DNA from: Methanothermococcus okinawensis IH1 | GTDB taxonomy: Archaea; AGJL01; Methanococci; Methanococcales; Methanococcaceae | DNA: 64,000 bases | Assembly (NCBI RefSeq): GCF_000179575.2 | Contig: NC_015636.1 | Span: 907,495-971,494, forward strand | Direction: 5' to 3' | Part shown: positions 26,963 through 34,877 of the stretch, in pieces | Layout of the letters: every line of letters starts with the position of its first letter | Numbering within the stretch: the first letter of the stretch is position 1 | Notes under the pieces: model-generated | What the model was told of the DNA's origin: nothing | What the model saw: the letters and a program-made list of their open reading frames with translations, nothing else | Database searches by the model: none | Translations under genes and position numbers: made by a program

Positions 26963-27820
26963 ATGTTAAAATTCCTTAAAAATAAAAGGGGAGCTATCGG
27001 TATTGGGACTTTGATTATATTCATTGCATTAGTATTAGTTGCAGCTGTTGCAGCTGCTGTAATTATAAACACAGCTGGGAAATTGCAACATAAAGCATCC
27101 ACTGTTGGTCAGGAAAGTACTAAACAGGTGGCAAGTGGTATTCAGGTTCTAAAAGTTGCAGGGTATGCAGATGTTAATTCTACGGATTCATTCATAATTA
27201 TAAACACGACATCCAATAAAACAATAATAAATAATTCTGCATATCGAAGTATATCGGATAGTTCTCAATACGACCATATAAAAGGCATTGCTATATTTGT
27301 AGAACCAAATATTGGTGATGATATAGATTTATCCTCCACCATAATTACAATATCGGATGAAGATAAAAAAGTGTCATTGGTATATTCAGGAATCATTGAA
27401 CATGTGGATACAAATGGTACTGAAAATATATTTAAAGGATTAGTCCTTGAAGGTGCTAACGATTCAGTTAATACTACTGAGGTTAATACTACCGATGGGA
27501 AACATATCAATGGAAGTTATGTAGTAATAAGAAATTCAGATGGTATTGTAGTAGGAAAAGATGGATGGGTATTAAACAATATGCCTAAATTTGGAATAAT
27601 TGTTTTACAAGATGCTGACCAATCCACATACGGAGCTCACCCTACCATAAATTATGGTGACAAGGTAGTACTTACGGTAAATACTGGTGAGATATTTAAA
27701 CCCGGTGTTGGAATAAGAGAAAAAATATCTGGTGAGGTAATTCCAGAATATGGTGCATCAGGAATAATCGAGTTTAGAACGCCATCAGTATATGGTGGTA
27801 AAGTGGTAGCTCTTCAATAA
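26963..27820 (+). CDS. flaB3: Archaellin B3 (hook-like archaellin)
   Basis: A 285-residue archaellin more divergent than B1 and B2. The signal peptide ends KNKRG before [14 protein letters not shown], and the C-terminal [15 protein letters not shown] is the archaellin end block. In other methanococci the third archaellin forms the cell-proximal hook-like segment, and position makes this the likely counterpart. GAGGTGA precedes the ATG. Its stop overlaps an ATG for flaC by one base. Confidence 0.9.
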
Positions 27821-27831
27821 TGGGTGAAAAA

Positions 27832-28385
27832 ATGCCAAATATATCTGAAATAATTGATGAAATAAAAAAAAAATAGCATTTGGTAAGAAGAAAGATGATA
27901 ATGAAGGAAATCTGGAAGATGAATTTATACTTGATGAAGAGGAGGAGATTGAATCGGGGGATGAATTAGCGGCTGCAAATGAGGAGCTTCTTGCTAAAAT
28001 TGGAGAGCTTGAATCAAGATTTCCAAAAATAGAAATGATGATTACAAATTTAAGAAAGGAAAATGAGACTTTAAGGGAAAATATAAACAAAATAAATGAA
28101 AATTTTCAGGACATAATGGCACTTTATGAAGTAGTCTCAAATCAAGTAAATCCATTTATAGGGATTTCTAAAATTACTGCAACCAGCATAGAAAAAATGG
28201 AAAGGTTAGAATATGAAGCAAATACTCTTAGAAAAAAAGTTGATGAATTACAAAAAGATGTTGTAATTCTTGCAGATATATATCTAAGACAGCAATATGA
28301 TATCGATTTAGATGATGTTATCAATGATGTACTTGCAGAAGAAGAAGTCTCCAAAGTAATATTGGGAGAGGATTCAAATGGTTAG
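27832..28385 (+). CDS. flaC: Archaellum motor-associated protein FlaC, frame broken at an A10 run
   Basis: Cytosolic subunit of the archaellum motor ring. From the ATG at 27832 (ribosome site GGTGA at 27824) the frame reads MPNISEIIDEIKKK and hits TAG at 27874-27876, directly after ten A at 27864-27873. One extra A, or a -1 slip on the A run, continues as IAFGKKKDDNEGN and joins without stops to the conserved coiled coil and FlaC core (DIMALYEVVSNQVNPFIGIS, then KVDELQKDVVILADIYL). The 54 codons between the A run and the next ATG (28035) are clearly FlaC-like, so 28035 is not the true start. It overlaps flaD by eight bases. Alternatives are phase variation, programmed slippage or a sequencing error. 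Confidence 0.85.
27864..27873 (+). repeat. A10 homopolymer tract in flaC
   Basis: Ten consecutive A near codon 14 of flaC. The upstream frame meets TAG immediately after it. Eight or eleven A would keep the whole gene in frame. This is a candidate slipped-strand or transcriptional-slippage site. Confidence 0.7.
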
Positions 28386-29400
28386 TGAAACAGAATTATA
28401 TTCATCTTCCACATTGGAAGATTACTTAACTGAGGATGAGTTGGAGGAATATTTGGAGAATTTAAAAACCAAAATTCCTTCATTTATTGTTGAATTATTA
28501 AAAAATAATTTGAAAAACAGAAGATTGACTAAGAATCAACTGGATAGGATAGTACATAGAGTTACTGATCTTTACTTGGGTAAAAAACCAGAAGATAAAA
28601 AAGCAGAGGAATTAACTGCTAAAATCAATGATTTGAGTAATAAATTGGATGCACTTATGAAAGTTGCGGCAATATCTTCTGCAACAAAAGTGTCTGAGGA
28701 TATCAAAAAAGAACTTACTGACATAGAAGGAGACGAAGAGGTGAAGACGGAGAACTTGGAGGATATGGTAGAAGATAATGAAAAAACTGATAATGTTAAT
28801 GAAAAAACTGATGTGATGGAAAAAGATGATGAATGCAAATTAATTACAGAAGATTTAGATGAGGAAGAACAGGCCCATGGAGAATTAGAAACCTCTGAAA
28901 CTGAAAAAAAAGAGGAAAAAAAATTTGAAGAGAAAGAGCACATCGAAGAGGAAAAAACTGAAAATTCAAAAAATGTTCCTATTATTGAAGAGGAGGTCAT
29001 TAATATGCCAACAGATTTAACGGGCATGCATGATAAAAAATATAATCTCGAAGAATTACCTGAGGACACCATATCTACAATGTTGGTCTTTAAATGGCTT
29101 GAATTTTTAATAAGTAGAGTTGGATTAAGCAATTTAATAGATATTTTAGATTATTATAATAGCTTAGGGTGGATATCTGAAAAAGTTGCCAATAGGTTGA
29201 TAAAAATCTCAAAAAACATGAAATACCTCAATGAAGAATTTAGAAAACCTATGGATAAGATGATATCGGAAGATCATATAGTTTCATTACTTTATATTGA
29301 AAAATTAGCTGGTAGGCCAATACCCATAGATGAGTTAGAAAGTATGGATCGGGAGATAAATAGAATAAGAAAATGGGCGGAAGAATTGCAAAGTATATAA
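28378..29400 (+). CDS. flaD: Archaellum motor protein FlaD
   Basis: 340 residues in three parts: a helical N-terminal region (about 1-110, including LTEDELEEYLENLKTKIPSF), a long acidic Glu/Lys-rich linker (about 115-205), and a C-terminal FlaD/E domain (about 220-340) with LPEDTISTMLVFKWLEFLISR and DHIVSLLYIEKLAGRPIP. FlaD with FlaC and FlaE links the motor to chemotaxis input in Euryarchaeota. The ATG overlaps the end of flaC. Confidence 0.9.
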   Translation: MVSETELYSSSTLEDYLTEDELEEYLENLKTKIPSFIVELLKNNLKNRRLTKNQLDRIVHRVTDLYLGKKPEDKKAEELTAKINDLSNKLDALMKVAAISSATKVSEDIKKELTDIEGDEEVKTENLEDMVEDNEKTDNVNEKTDVMEKDDECKLITEDLDEEEQAHGELETSETEKKEEKKFEEKEHIEEEKTENSKNVPIIEEEVINMPTDLTGMHDKKYNLEELPEDTISTMLVFKWLEFLISRVGLSNLIDILDYYNSLGWISEKVANRLIKISKNMKYLNEEFRKPMDKMISEDHIVSLLYIEKLAGRPIPIDELESMDREINRIRKWAEELQSI

Positions 29401-29431
29401 TTACTAAGAGATATTGCAAGGAGGGATTATT

Positions 29432-29839
29432 ATGGATACATCAACATTATCTTCAATATTATTTGAAGCACATAAACCAGCTAAATTAGAGGAAATTCCA
29501 GAGGACCCAATATCAATAATATTTACTTTTAAATGGTTGGAATATTTATCTGAAAGAGTAGGTTATTCAAATATTGCCGATACGATGGAATTTTACTATA
29601 ATTTAGGATGGTTATCAGATAAAGCAGTATTGAGTTTGTTAAAATATTTAAAAGGTATTAAACCAGGAAATGAAGATATAGATGAAGCTTCTGGCAATCT
29701 TACGATTGCGGACCATTTAGTTTCACTGTTATTTATAGAAAGATTAAATGGTAAAAAAATTTCTAGCGAATTGCTTGATAAGATAGAATGGGAAATAAGG
29801 AGAATAAAAAAGGGGGTTGAACAATACTATGGGATTTAG
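29432..29839 (+). CDS. flaE: Archaellum motor protein FlaE
   Basis: A 135-residue stand-alone FlaD/E domain similar to the C-terminus of FlaD: IPEDPISIIFTFKWLEYLSER and DHLVSLLFIERLNGKKIS. I chose ATG at 29432, after AAGGAGGGA, rather than an in-frame TTG at 29414 that lies within the ribosome site region. Its end overlaps flaF by 11 bases, suggesting coupled translation. Confidence 0.9.
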   Translation: MDTSTLSSILFEAHKPAKLEEIPEDPISIIFTFKWLEYLSERVGYSNIADTMEFYYNLGWLSDKAVLSLLKYLKGIKPGNEDIDEASGNLTIADHLVSLLFIERLNGKKISSELLDKIEWEIRRIKKGVEQYYGI

Positions 29840-30236
29840 TTCAACTGCTGGTTTAATAGTTATACTATCAACAGTATTGGTTTGTTCCATATATCTATAT
29901 AGTTCAGTAGATTTAAACATTGTTAAGATGGATAATGCATATTCTGACTACATAAATTGTTTGAATAATAAAGCACATGAAAAATTGATAATATTATCTG
30001 CGGTAAATTCAAGCGATACTATAAATATCACACTTTTAAATAATGGTTCATTAACTCATGAACCCGATAAATGGACGGTACTGTATAATGGCACACCAAA
30101 GAACTTTGAAATTAGCCCAAATATAGTGTATTTAACGCCATTGAATAATATTACAATTATCATAAATGCCACCGCTCCTGCAAGAATATGTGTAGTTTCA
30201 GAATATGGAAATAAATATTATTATAATCTAAATTAG
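29829..30236 (+). CDS. flaF: Archaellum stator-like protein FlaF
   Basis: 135 residues, one N-terminal membrane helix (about 6-28, TAGLIVILSTVLVCSIYLY), then a beta-sandwich ectodomain with several sequons (NSS, NIT, NGS, NNIT, NAT). FlaF and FlaG form the pseudoperiplasmic stator element that contacts the S-layer. The ATG at 29829 follows GGGGGTTGA within flaE. Confidence 0.87.
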   Translation: MGFSSTAGLIVILSTVLVCSIYLYSSVDLNIVKMDNAYSDYINCLNNKAHEKLIILSAVNSSDTINITLLNNGSLTHEPDKWTVLYNGTPKNFEISPNIVYLTPLNNITIIINATAPARICVVSEYGNKYYYNLN

Positions 30237-30306
30237 ATTAAATTAAGTTAAAATATAAGAATATTTTTAATTTTTTATGTTTTTAGTGTTGATTTTAGGT
30301 GATTTA

Positions 30307-30765
30307 ATGGCATCCAACGTATTCTCAGAAATAATTATATTCGTCAGTGTTTTGATAATTGCTGCGTCTGTTTCTGGGATTTTAGCAACTAGCACCCATA
30401 AATTATCTATCGGAATAAATAATAAAGGAGACATACTTTCGTCAAAATTATCCCAGGATTTTGAAATTATCAATGACCCTGCGGATATTCCAAGGAATCA
30501 ATCAACGGGTATTATTTCGGTATATATAAAAAATACTGGAAAAACGCCAATAACATTTAATAAAGGGGTTTTGACAGTTTTAATTGATGGAGATATTAAA
30601 TCTATAAATTCTACAACAGTGGTAGATGATAGTTCATCAAATGAATTGTTAAATCCATCGAAAGTTGGTAAAATTGATGTTAACTACAACACAACAGGAT
30701 ACCACCGAATAAAAGTGGTTTCTGAGAATGGGGTGGCTAGGACATTGAAGGTAGACATTCAATGA
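30307..30765 (+). CDS. flaG: Archaellum stator-like protein FlaG
   Basis: 152 residues, an N-terminal membrane helix (about 5-27, FSEIIIFVSVLIIAASVSGIL), then a soluble beta-rich domain (TGIISVYIKNTGKTPITFNK). It is the partner of FlaF in the stator. I chose ATG at 30307, after AGGTGAT at 30297, because the upstream in-frame ATG at 30277 lacks a ribosome site and would add a second hydrophobic stretch. Confidence 0.87.
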   Translation: MASNVFSEIIIFVSVLIIAASVSGILATSTHKLSIGINNKGDILSSKLSQDFEIINDPADIPRNQSTGIISVYIKNTGKTPITFNKGVLTVLIDGDIKSINSTTVVDDSSSNELLNPSKVGKIDVNYNTTGYHRIKVVSENGVARTLKVDIQ

Positions 30766-30786
30766 CGGCATATGTCTGGTGATTTT

Positions 30787-31479
30787 ATGAAGTTGGCAAA
30801 AATCGAACTTAGTAGGGATGATGTTCATAAAAGATTGGGTGGAGGTATTCCATATGGGAGTATAATTCTTATAGAAGGTGAAGAATCAACTGGAAAATCA
30901 ATAATTGCTCAAAGATTAGCCTACGGCTTCTTACAAAATGCTCATTCAGTTACCTATGTTTCAACACAACTAACAACGTTGGAGTTTGTAAAGCAGATGA
31001 TGTCATTAAAATATAATATAAATAAAAAACTTTTGAGTGGAGTTTTATTGTATATCCCGGTATATCCATTAATATCTGATAATCTTCAAAAGGAAGATTT
31101 TATAAAAAAACTTATGGAAACAAGGATATTTTATGAAAAAGATATCATAATATATGATACCATATCCTCCCTCATAATAAATGATGCAAGCGATGTTAAA
31201 GTTAATGATTTAATAGCTTTTTTTAAAAGGATAGCAGCCATGAATAAGATTGTAATTTACACCATCAATCCAAAAGAACTACCAGAATCTGTTTTAACAT
31301 TATTTAGAACAGCTGCTACAATGGTATTAAAAACTGAAATTTACACATTTGGAGGGAGTGTTAAGAACCTTGTAAGGATTGAAAAATATAATTTAGCAAG
31401 GGGCCCATATCAAAAAACCATGGTATTTAGAGTAGAGCCTAATTTAGGTATTGCAGTGGAAATATCATCCGTAGCATAA
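30787..31479 (+). CDS. flaH: Archaellum ATP-binding regulator FlaH
   Basis: A 230-residue RecA/KaiC-like protein with Walker A GEESTGKS (about residues 32-39) and a degenerate Walker B near IIYDTISSL (about 121-129). FlaH binds ATP but hydrolyses it poorly, and sits inside the FlaX/FlaCDE ring to regulate FlaI. ATG at 30787 follows GGTGAT; an in-frame ATG at 30772 is an alternative. Confidence 0.9.
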   Translation: MKLAKIELSRDDVHKRLGGGIPYGSIILIEGEESTGKSIIAQRLAYGFLQNAHSVTYVSTQLTTLEFVKQMMSLKYNINKKLLSGVLLYIPVYPLISDNLQKEDFIKKLMETRIFYEKDIIIYDTISSLIINDASDVKVNDLIAFFKRIAAMNKIVIYTINPKELPESVLTLFRTAATMVLKTEIYTFGGSVKNLVRIEKYNLARGPYQKTMVFRVEPNLGIAVEISSVA

Positions 31480-31544
31480 AATATGAATTAGATATACAAC
31501 AACACAGCAGCACAGAGAATTTTATAAAATATAAGGTGATAGAA

Positions 31545-33179
31545 ATGGCAGATGAGTTTAAAACCGCTATGGAAAGAAACCCTCATTTGCGTAAGTATGT
31601 GGACAAGTTCAAAAAAACCTATTTAAAAATGCCAGAATTCATGACTGGTTTATCGAGAGATTTAAAAGAACTTAAATATCCAAATATTCTTTATCCGATT
31701 GGTGATCCCTTATTTGTCCATATATTTGGAACTCAGGATGTTAATACAAAGTATATAGTTATAGAACCCAGGTTGGAAACTTCTGATGAAAGATTAACTT
31801 ATAAAATGATAATGGATAAACTTTTGGAATATGCTCCTTATGCCGATTCTCCTGAAAATGATGAAGAATTTGGAAAAATACTAACCGACTTATTTAACAA
31901 AATTACCAAGGTTGTCGATAATAAAAAAAGTAGAAAAAAACTCTTTAATTTTTTAAATCCTGGAAAAGTTGAAATTACAAAATATGAAAGGGACAAATAC
32001 CTATATTTGTTAAAAAGGGATTTAGTAGGATTGGGTGTGCTTGAACCTATTAAACGAGACCCTTATATAGAGGATATACACGTAATAGGTTCAAATGGTT
32101 GTCAGCTCGTTCATAAAATATTTGATATGCTTCCTACAAATATTAGATGGGAGAATGACATTGAACTTTCAAATTATTTAAAAAATATGTGTGAAAGGAT
32201 AGGCAGGCCAGTTTCTGATGCAAATCCTGTGGTTGATGGTTCTCTTCCTGATGGTTCCAGGATAAATATTATTTATTCAACTGATGTTTCATTAAAGGGT
32301 CCTTCATTTACCATTAGGAAATTTACAGATGTTCCGATAAGTATTACTCAACTTATTAGTTGGGGGACAATGTCAGCTCAAACTGCGGCATATTTGTGGC
32401 TTTGTTTAGAGTATGGTATGAGTATATTTATTTGTGGAGAAACGGCATCAGGAAAAACCACAACTTTAAATGCCATATTGCCATTTATTAAACCAAAATC
32501 TAAGGTGTTTTCTTGTGAGGATACTTCTGAGGTAAAACCTCCTCAGCCAGTATGGCAACAGTTATTAACAAGGGAGAGAGGACCTGAGGAAAGTAGGGTT
32601 ACACTTTTTGATTTATTAAGGGCTGCACTGAGGTCTAGACCTAATTATATTATTGTTGGAGAAATAAGGAGTGTTGAAGGTGCAGTGGCATTTCAAGCAA
32701 TGCAGACAGGACACCCTGTGTTATCTACATTCCACGCTGCAAATGTTAAAAAAATGATTCAAAGATTAAATGGTGAGCCAATTAACATTCCCCTAACTTT
32801 CATGGATAACCTCAATGTGGCATTATTTCAGCTTGCGGTGTATAGCAGGGGCAAGTTTTTAAGGAGGGTTGTAGGTGTTGAAGAAATTGAGGGGTATTAT
32901 AAAGAAGTAGATGGAGTAATTACAAGAGGAGTGTTTGAATGGGACCCTCAAAAGGATAAACATAATTTTACAGGGCTTAACAACAGTTATATTCTTGAAG
33001 ATAAAATTGCAAATGTGGCAGGTTATGATGATCCCAGGGAGATATATAATGAATTAAATTTAAGGACTAGAATACTTGAAGAAATGATAGCAAGAGGGAT
33101 GTTTGGATATTATGAGGTTTTAGATGTAATATGGAGTTTTTATGAAAAAGGATTGGAAGGTCTTCCATTCCCTATCTGA
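31545..33179 (+). CDS. flaI: Archaellum assembly and rotation ATPase FlaI
   Basis: A 544-residue secretion-type hexameric ATPase driving both filament assembly and rotation. Walker A is FICGETASGKTTT (about 296-308), the Asp box region is KVFSCEDTSEVKPP, Walker B is NYIIVGEIRSVEG, and the His box is HPVLSTFHAANVKKM. The N-terminal domain (1-210) contacts FlaJ and FlaH. I chose ATG at 31545, after AAGGTGATAGAA, over a GTG at 31536 inside the ribosome site. Confidence 0.93.
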   Translation: MADEFKTAMERNPHLRKYVDKFKKTYLKMPEFMTGLSRDLKELKYPNILYPIGDPLFVHIFGTQDVNTKYIVIEPRLETSDERLTYKMIMDKLLEYAPYADSPENDEEFGKILTDLFNKITKVVDNKKSRKKLFNFLNPGKVEITKYERDKYLYLLKRDLVGLGVLEPIKRDPYIEDIHVIGSNGCQLVHKIFDMLPTNIRWENDIELSNYLKNMCERIGRPVSDANPVVDGSLPDGSRINIIYSTDVSLKGPSFTIRKFTDVPISITQLISWGTMSAQTAAYLWLCLEYGMSIFICGETASGKTTTLNAILPFIKPKSKVFSCEDTSEVKPPQPVWQQLLTRERGPEESRVTLFDLLRAALRSRPNYIIVGEIRSVEGAVAFQAMQTGHPVLSTFHAANVKKMIQRLNGEPINIPLTFMDNLNVALFQLAVYSRGKFLRRVVGVEEIEGYYKEVDGVITRGVFEWDPQKDKHNFTGLNNSYILEDKIANVAGYDDPREIYNELNLRTRILEEMIARGMFGYYEVLDVIWSFYEKGLEGLPFPI

Positions 33180-33197
33180 GGTAATTGAGGTGATTTT

Positions 33198-34877
33198 ATG
33201 TTCTTAAATATTTTATCCCGTGTTGGATTAAAACCCAGAGATTATTTATTAAAATATATACTACCTTCAATTATTCTTTCAATTGGTTTAGTGATTATGG
33301 GGATGACTTATTTTTCAGGATATATAAAATTATTAATGTTGGTTATTTCAATATTGATTTTAGGTAGTGCCATAGGTTATCCATACATAGAATTAGATAG
33401 TCAAAAAAATCAGATAAACGAAAAACTACACATATTTATAACAAAATTTGGTGTTTTGTCAATAACCGATTTAGATAGAAAAGAACTCATGAAAATTCTT
33501 GCACAGGAAAAGGAGGAGCTCGGACAATTAGCCAATGAATCCAAAAAAATATATGTATTGATAAAAAGGTGGAATCAATCACTTGCTGAAGCTTGCAGAT
33601 TTTTAGCACAGAGAACTCCAAGCAGTGAATTTGCAGATTTTTTAGATAGAATGGCATATTCAATAGATAGTGGTGAAGAACTCAAAGATTTCTTAGCTAA
33701 GGAGCAATCAATAGTTATGAATGATTATGCTGCATTTTATAAGCGAGCGTTGTATTCATTGGATATGTTTAAAGAGATGTATATTAGTGCAGTCACATCT
33801 CTTGCATTTTTTGTAACTTTTGCAGTTATAGCTCCATTCATAGCACACTATAATTTTGTAACCACAGTTACTGTGGCATTAATCGGATTTGTTTTGGTGG
33901 AGATATGTTTGGTATATGTTATCAAAAGTAAAATGCCCACAGATAGGCTATGGCATACTGGTGAAAAACCTACTCGTGTAGATTTAAAACTTAGGAGATA
34001 TTTGATAGCCTCAATAATTTTAACTATAATTACCACAGGCTTTCTTATTTGGGGAAAATATGTCGCAGAAATTCCCAAAGTGTCTGAAATTCCATATCAA
34101 ATATTATTTGCTACTGGATTTACGCCTCTCTTAATCGGAGGATATGTTGCCAAAAGAGAGGAGAGTTTAGTTATAAGAAAAGAATATAATTTTCCAGATT
34201 TTTTAAGGTCCTTGGGAGATTCGGTTAGTGCAAAAGGAGGAGGTATGGAAGATTCCTTAAAATATTTATCGTCTCATGATTTTGGTCCATTGACAAAAGA
34301 TTTAGAACAACTTTATAAGAGAGTATCAATAAGAATCGATAATAATAAAGCATGGAGACTTTTTGGTTTTGAAACATGTAGTTATCTGATACAGTTATTT
34401 TCAGAAATGTTTGAAAGATGTACATTTTTGGGGGGTGACCCTGGAAAAGCTTCTGAAATCATAGGCAATAATTTTCGTAAAATAATTAATTTAAGGAAAT
34501 CAAAGTATCAAAGCGTAGAACAATTTGCAGGTATAATGTATGGATTGGGAGGAGGTCTTGCCCTTGCATTATATACATCTTATGGTGTAGCCCACATGGT
34601 AAATAATTTATACACATCCCTTGAAATCCCAGAGGCAATGATTACTGTTATAAATGTTATAGCCCCCGGAGATTTATCAATAATATCCTATTTAATGTAT
34701 GCATGCATGGCAATATATGCTTTAATTTCAGGATACATGATAAAAATAATGGATGGCGGACATCCGCAGGTTTTATTAATGCATTTTATAATAATACTTT
34801 GGATAATTTCTATTGTATCCTATATCACCGAGCTCATAATAAATAAAATATTGGGGGTAGGTATTCCATTGTTTTAA
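33198..34877 (+). CDS. flaJ: Archaellum membrane platform protein FlaJ
   Basis: 559 residues of the TadC/T2SS-F platform family with about nine membrane helices: a pair near 18-60, a group near 200-245, a group near 272-312, and the last helices near 445-470 and 485-550. Two cytoplasmic helical domains lie between them; conserved stretches include AQRTPSSEFADFLDRMAYSI and FPDFLRSLGDSVSAKGGGME. It anchors the motor ATPase FlaI. GAGGTGATTTT precedes the ATG. It is the last gene of the archaellum operon; an AT-rich spacer of 75 bases separates it from a convergent gene. Confidence 0.93.
   Translation: MFLNILSRVGLKPRDYLLKYILPSIILSIGLVIMGMTYFSGYIKLLMLVISILILGSAIGYPYIELDSQKNQINEKLHIFITKFGVLSITDLDRKELMKILAQEKEELGQLANESKKIYVLIKRWNQSLAEACRFLAQRTPSSEFADFLDRMAYSIDSGEELKDFLAKEQSIVMNDYAAFYKRALYSLDMFKEMYISAVTSLAFFVTFAVIAPFIAHYNFVTTVTVALIGFVLVEICLVYVIKSKMPTDRLWHTGEKPTRVDLKLRRYLIASIILTIITTGFLIWGKYVAEIPKVSEIPYQILFATGFTPLLIGGYVAKREESLVIRKEYNFPDFLRSLGDSVSAKGGGMEDSLKYLSSHDFGPLTKDLEQLYKRVSIRIDNNKAWRLFGFETCSYLIQLFSEMFERCTFLGGDPGKASEIIGNNFRKIINLRKSKYQSVEQFAGIMYGLGGGLALALYTSYGVAHMVNNLYTSLEIPEAMITVINVIAPGDLSIISYLMYACMAIYALISGYMIKIMDGGHPQVLLMHFIIILWIISIVSYITELIINKILGVGIPLF

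Follow-up and report, generated by a model that had tools for sequence, protein, structure and literature searches.

The archaellum gene flaC of mostly thermophilic Methanococcales is almost certainly expressed by programmed frameshifting at 9-11 adenines near its start, as judged from the comparison of the 26 copies found in this order. The gene was found to be out of frame at a run of at least nine A (A9-A11) in 18 of them, which represent 17 genomes and as many species, and the same -1 relation was observed in 17 of the 18. When slippage of the polymerase and of the ribosome are taken together, the probability of recoding is estimated at about 0.92. Programmed transcriptional slippage at the A-run is the mechanism that we favour, by a judgement only somewhat better than even.

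The flaC locus of M. okinawensis

The window is the whole stretch of 64,000 nucleotides that was analysed in Methanothermococcus okinawensis IH1 (contig NC_015636.1, positions 907,495 to 971,494), and the features of interest are collected in Table 1. A preliminary description had read flaC as a frame of 14 codons, opened by a proper ribosome site and ATG and closed by TAG after ten A, with FlaC-like sequence continuing in the -1 frame. The coordinates were confirmed. The -1 frame is open for 170 codons from the ATA at 27873 to the TAG at 28383-28385, and its residues 42-96 match the Pfam family FlaC_arch (PF05377) with 83.8 bits (cut-off 27.8). Its earliest ATG is found only at 28035, 53-54 codons 3' of A10. 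The identity as FlaC (ArlC) is given by this domain and by the place between the archaellins and flaD in the archaellum operon, whose other genes are intact. No second flaC was detected by protein search in the M. okinawensis genome.

Table 1. Features of the flaC locus and A9 runs in split chelatase genes (window coordinates unless a genome and contig are given)
Feature	Position	Strand	Basis
Archaellin gene flaB3, upstream of flaC	26963..27820	+	PF01917
Shine-Dalgarno-like GGTGA of flaC	27823..27827	+	sequence
Zero-frame flaC start: ATG 27832, MPNISEIIDEIKKK, then TAG	27832..27876	+	translation, 14 codons
Proposed A10 slip site in flaC	27864..27873	+	sequence
Zero-frame TAG directly after A10	27874..27876	+	sequence
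FlaC (ArlC) body, -1 frame	27873..28385	+	open reading frame and PF05377
flaD	28378..29400	+	PF04659
flaE, flaG, flaH, flaI, flaJ	within 29429..34877	+	PF04659, PF01917, PF06745, PF00437, PF00482, respectively
flaF	within 29429..34877	+	position only, without Pfam match
A9 of split chelatase, L057	G000:C2:1189079-1189087		
A9 of split chelatase, L058	G019:C1:1234542-1234550		

FlaC had been taken for a motor protein; it is an accessory protein of the switch complex and not the motor ATPase. It belongs to ArlCDE, the complex that connects the motor with CheF (PMC8978795); cells of M. maripaludis from which flaC has been deleted are non-archaellated (PMC4187195). The ATG of flaD (28378) shares 8 bases with the end of flaC (28378-28385), and translation of flaD may be coupled to, or helped by, that of the FlaC body.

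Rarity of the A-run in the genome

Homopolymers were counted by pattern searches on both strands of the genome (1,677,455 bases, two contigs). A10/T10 occurs once, and this is the flaC run; the numbers of maximal runs, derived from overlapping word counts, were 406 for A8, 14 for A9 and 1 for A10. A single A10/T10, likewise in flaC, was also found in G019, a complete genome of another genus in one contig of 1,706,496 bases. Compared with synonymous shuffling, the genes of the window contain A8 as expected (15 observed, 14.6 expected) and no run of at least nine (5.3 expected), which places the action of selection between eight and nine. Scaled to 1.5 Mb of coding DNA, an extrapolation from the shuffles of the window's genes, about 148 runs of at least nine and about 56 of at least ten would be expected. 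Set against the latter number, the single A10 is not a product of chance, and it has persisted although runs of at least nine have been strongly purged. In four genomes of a second family (f2, Methanocaldococcaceae-like) just 6 to 18 A9 words were counted in each, the flaC run included. In many bacterial genomes, too, nine is the length at which selection against slippage in transcription is reported to set in (PMC1088944). The purge could, however, also be explained by replication slippage, which weakens it as an argument for slippage of the polymerase.

Conservation of the layout among Methanococcales

A protein search retrieved flaC from 15 of the 22 genomes of the window's family. In the window's group A10 occupies codons 11-14, and A10 followed by TAG is found at identical codons in G015, G012, G008, G013 and G014, of the same genus, and in G019. 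With the window's genome this amounts to seven assemblies of two genera, and TAG adjoins the run in all seven A10 copies. A Shine-Dalgarno-like match before the ATG is present in the other shifted copies as well. flaC is in frame, with a broken lysine run, in seven Methanococcus-like genomes (genus g2) and in the divergent G009. The Methanococcus-like gene has the same place in the operon and encodes the same protein, including the N-terminal helix, but in a single reading frame and with AAACAGAAG and similar sequences in place of the lysine run. No flaC was found in G020 and G021 (genus g4), two near-complete genomes of the same family.

The A10 tract had been presented as a possible phase-variation switch, in which replication slippage toggles flaC between on (A11, A8) and off (A10). 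The location of a ten-base homopolymer so early in a motility gene speaks for this reading, since such a place is typical of contingency loci and bacterial phase-variable surface and motility tracts are similarly located. If the tract were phase-variable, about one third of the genomes should be on; yet all 18 copies with a tract are out of frame, the same A10 is shared by the seven genomes of two genera and the tracts of the other family are all off. The lack of an in-frame state and the conservation of length between species also set flaC apart from the bacterial tracts. Phase variation was ruled out by this comparison across species and is regarded as exceedingly improbable. The related claim that a change of one base would toggle the gene is correct for an inserted A (A11), which restores the frame, but not for A9, as two deletions are needed.

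Sequencing or assembly error, or decay of flaC into a pseudogene, was considered as well, given that such errors typically arise in homopolymers. An error had been anticipated to appear as a uniform A8 or A11, and an interrupted run in close relatives had been named as contrary evidence; instead, A10 recurs in the seven assemblies, and the ten flaC genes of the other family are likewise out of frame. The state is shared by 17 assemblies from two families, and several of these are complete. Together with purifying selection on N-terminus and body and the intact remainder of the operon, this makes the chance of error or decay next to nil, and both were ruled out by comparison across genomes.

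Contig C219 of G013 (L017 / L020) carries a second flaC copy, with A9 and in the other frame class. G013 is a fragmentary MAG. Because this genome is only 64% complete and has two flaC copies, and because the A9 copy is a near neighbour of the A10-bearing G014 in the FlaC tree, the A9 may be an assembly fault. If it is a real variant, it is serviceable only by a change in RNA length.

The in-frame FlaC of G009 (L016, G009:C1:287498-288034), a genome of the window's genus, has 57% identity and lies on a long branch. The archaellum operon of this genome has possibly been replaced.

A second proposed slip site in another family

The order-wide search retrieved ten flaC genes of family f2 (genus g5), and all ten are out of frame. 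In these genes the frame led by a Shine-Dalgarno-like element and ATG (e.g. MGIKDIIESIKNKLSNLKLKKN) enters nine A, or eleven in G030, with the body encoded thereafter in the -1 frame; a zero-frame stop lies 4-46 nt downstream of the run. The run is located at codons ~18-22, about 8 codons further on than in the window's group, and each group has other codons interrupting the position of the other's lysine cluster. The slip site would thus stand at two different places in one gene. Two label changes are required on the FlaC tree, in which the root and the placement of the divergent G009 are unsure. The best explanation of the two sites is that there were two origins or that the site has moved.

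Selection and the joined protein

Both sides of the run are under purifying selection. The dN/dS values, pooled simple estimates at high synonymous divergence, were 0.079 for the zero-frame N-terminus and 0.075 for the -1-frame core in the window's group, and 0.281 before and 0.083 after the run in family f2. When the joined FlaC of the window's group was aligned with the in-frame Methanococcus-like protein, no gap was observed at the junction. The lysine codons within the run are invariantly AAA in three of three columns, compared with three of nine all-lysine columns elsewhere; this signal is too weak to be used as evidence.

A structure model of the in-frame FlaC (mean pLDDT 76, pTM 0.28, shallow alignment) begins with a short helix (4-18) at the N-terminus, which is followed by a disordered linker (18-42) and then by long helices, probably forming a coiled coil. 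The N-terminal helix is amphipathic. Projected on the model, the frameshift site would fall at the end of this helix or at the start of the linker.

Alternatively, the body could have a start of its own, be it AUA/AUU at the junction, reinitiation after termination or an internal ATG, leaving the upstream frame as a leader peptide. The ATAG overlap of stop and body frame makes reinitiation imaginable in the window's group, but this overlap is missing in the Methanocaldococcaceae-like family. Nor is the first standard start in the body frame conserved, its distance from the run varying among the shifted copies from 13 to 53 codons. In addition, the upstream peptide aligns with the N-terminus of the in-frame Methanococcus-like FlaC and is under purifying selection. 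An independent start is therefore considered very improbable. Internal initiation in particular was set aside, as no start in the body frame is conserved.

Slippage of the polymerase or of the ribosome

That slippage on A10 could yield a fraction of full protein had already been suggested in the preliminary description, and the conserved out-of-frame layout, with the same -1 relation in all but one shifted copy, lends support to it. From the comparison as a whole we infer that full-length FlaC is made, with RNA polymerase as the slipping agent, and that its dose is set in the process. The polymerase would slip on the A-run and add one A to part of the transcripts, and ordinary translation of these would fuse the FlaC body with the N-terminal helix. 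From unslipped transcripts only a dead-end peptide of 14-37 residues would result, and the level of slippage would fix the FlaC dose. Since the unslipped product is such a stub, setting a dose is the simplest role for the recoding.

The same protein would be obtained if ribosomes slipped back one base on A_AAA_AAN, and since their product would not differ from that of an mRNA with one A more, the two mechanisms look alike in sequence. A ribosomal slippery heptamer requires 6-7 A only. All 18 flaC runs, however, have at least nine, in genomes that purge such runs, which favours transcriptional slippage. The A9 copy of the MAG, fixable by a change in RNA length only, points the same way, although this sole exception may be an assembly fault. 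In the window's group no consistent downstream RNA structure was found (0 to -8 kcal/mol), strong folds being isolated (only L032, L028, L027 and L004), and inspection by eye showed no Shine-Dalgarno-like element immediately upstream of the run. Stimulators of this kind are usual for -1 frameshifting, but not obligatory. The stop codon adjoins the run in one group only, which also speaks against the ribosome.

In favour of the ribosome, the run is always in phase for the heptamer, as A_AAA_AAA in the window's group and as A_AAA_AAC or A_AAA_AAG in the Methanocaldococcaceae-like family. The direction is constant in the 17 copies, although the copies stem from few independent events. In the GeneTack survey (PMC3711429), one constant direction among orthologues was taken by its authors as a sign of ribosomal frameshifting, while orthologues with transcriptional slippage need not keep one direction. 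There is also a precedent in one archaeal gene, fucA1, the only -1 frameshift in archaea experimentally shown according to a 2021 review (PMC8211752). On balance, -1 ribosomal frameshifting is a serious candidate, but one to which we give rather less than even odds.

Comparison with known recoding systems

Programmed transcriptional slippage on A-runs is known from Thermus thermophilus dnaX (A9), bacterial IS transposases and Shigella mxiE. Like these, flaC has a conserved A/T run of at least nine, avoided genome-wide, and frames that would be joined only after a one-base change in RNA length. Those systems are bacterial, however, and both dnaX products are functional, whereas in flaC the run lies within the first 11-22 codons, which makes the predicted unslipped product a stub. 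The fucA1 gene of Saccharolobus solfataricus is likewise an archaeal gene split by -1 at an A-rich slip heptamer. It differs in its short slip site, putative stem-loop and rare codons, in contrast to the A9-A11 of flaC, which lack consistent structure and are conserved across two families.

An internal control is provided by an A9 run that joins the halves of a chelatase (Cob-chelat-sub/ChlD type) in -1 relation, both in the window's genome (G000), where it is one of the 14 A9 runs, and in G019. The survey (PMC3711429) places this chelatase in a predicted recoding family that includes Methanocaldococcus, Methanococcus and bacteria, and reports 10-63% frameshifting for three members in E. coli, higher with longer A-runs. 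The chlD-type genes of that survey resemble flaC in the A9 run and the -1 relation, but they have a long first product that may work alone. In the searched text of the survey flaC is not named.

Significance

Slippery A-runs are a known form of recoding; as far as found, their use in the archaellum, their use in archaea and their repeated use in one gene are new. In the literature searched, no archaeal case of programmed transcriptional slippage was described, and recoding of archaellum genes was not mentioned. Seventeen genomes of two families appear to rely on recoding for a gene that M. maripaludis requires for its archaella, and in the annotations of these genomes flaC is likely to have been missed, truncated or called a pseudogene. 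The gene would also be a clean system in which to ask whether the archaeal RNA polymerase or the archaeal ribosome slips.

The lineages with a shifted flaC are thermophilic, and Methanococcus is a mesophile; G009 may be an exception. A link between the flaC frameshift and temperature can be put forward as a hypothesis. One of the fastest swimmers known is Methanocaldococcus villosus (PMC3709152), which means that members of this genus make working archaella. Whether slippage serves thermophilic methanogens as a regulated device for FlaC dosage, evolved twice in the same gene, is more doubtful, and we propose it tentatively, as an unlikely reading. Slippage would then set FlaC relative to its operon partners, and hence determine whether archaella are built and controlled; slippage of the polymerase could vary with temperature or nucleotide supply. 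To our knowledge, programmed transcriptional slippage would thereby be shown for the first time in archaea.

A further A9 run was observed in G019 (L064, G019:C1:1473472-1473480), where a frame with PEGA-like and membrane segments overlaps one that resembles a protein kinase. Since the second frame possesses an ATG of its own, the pair may represent coupled genes or a further recoding site.
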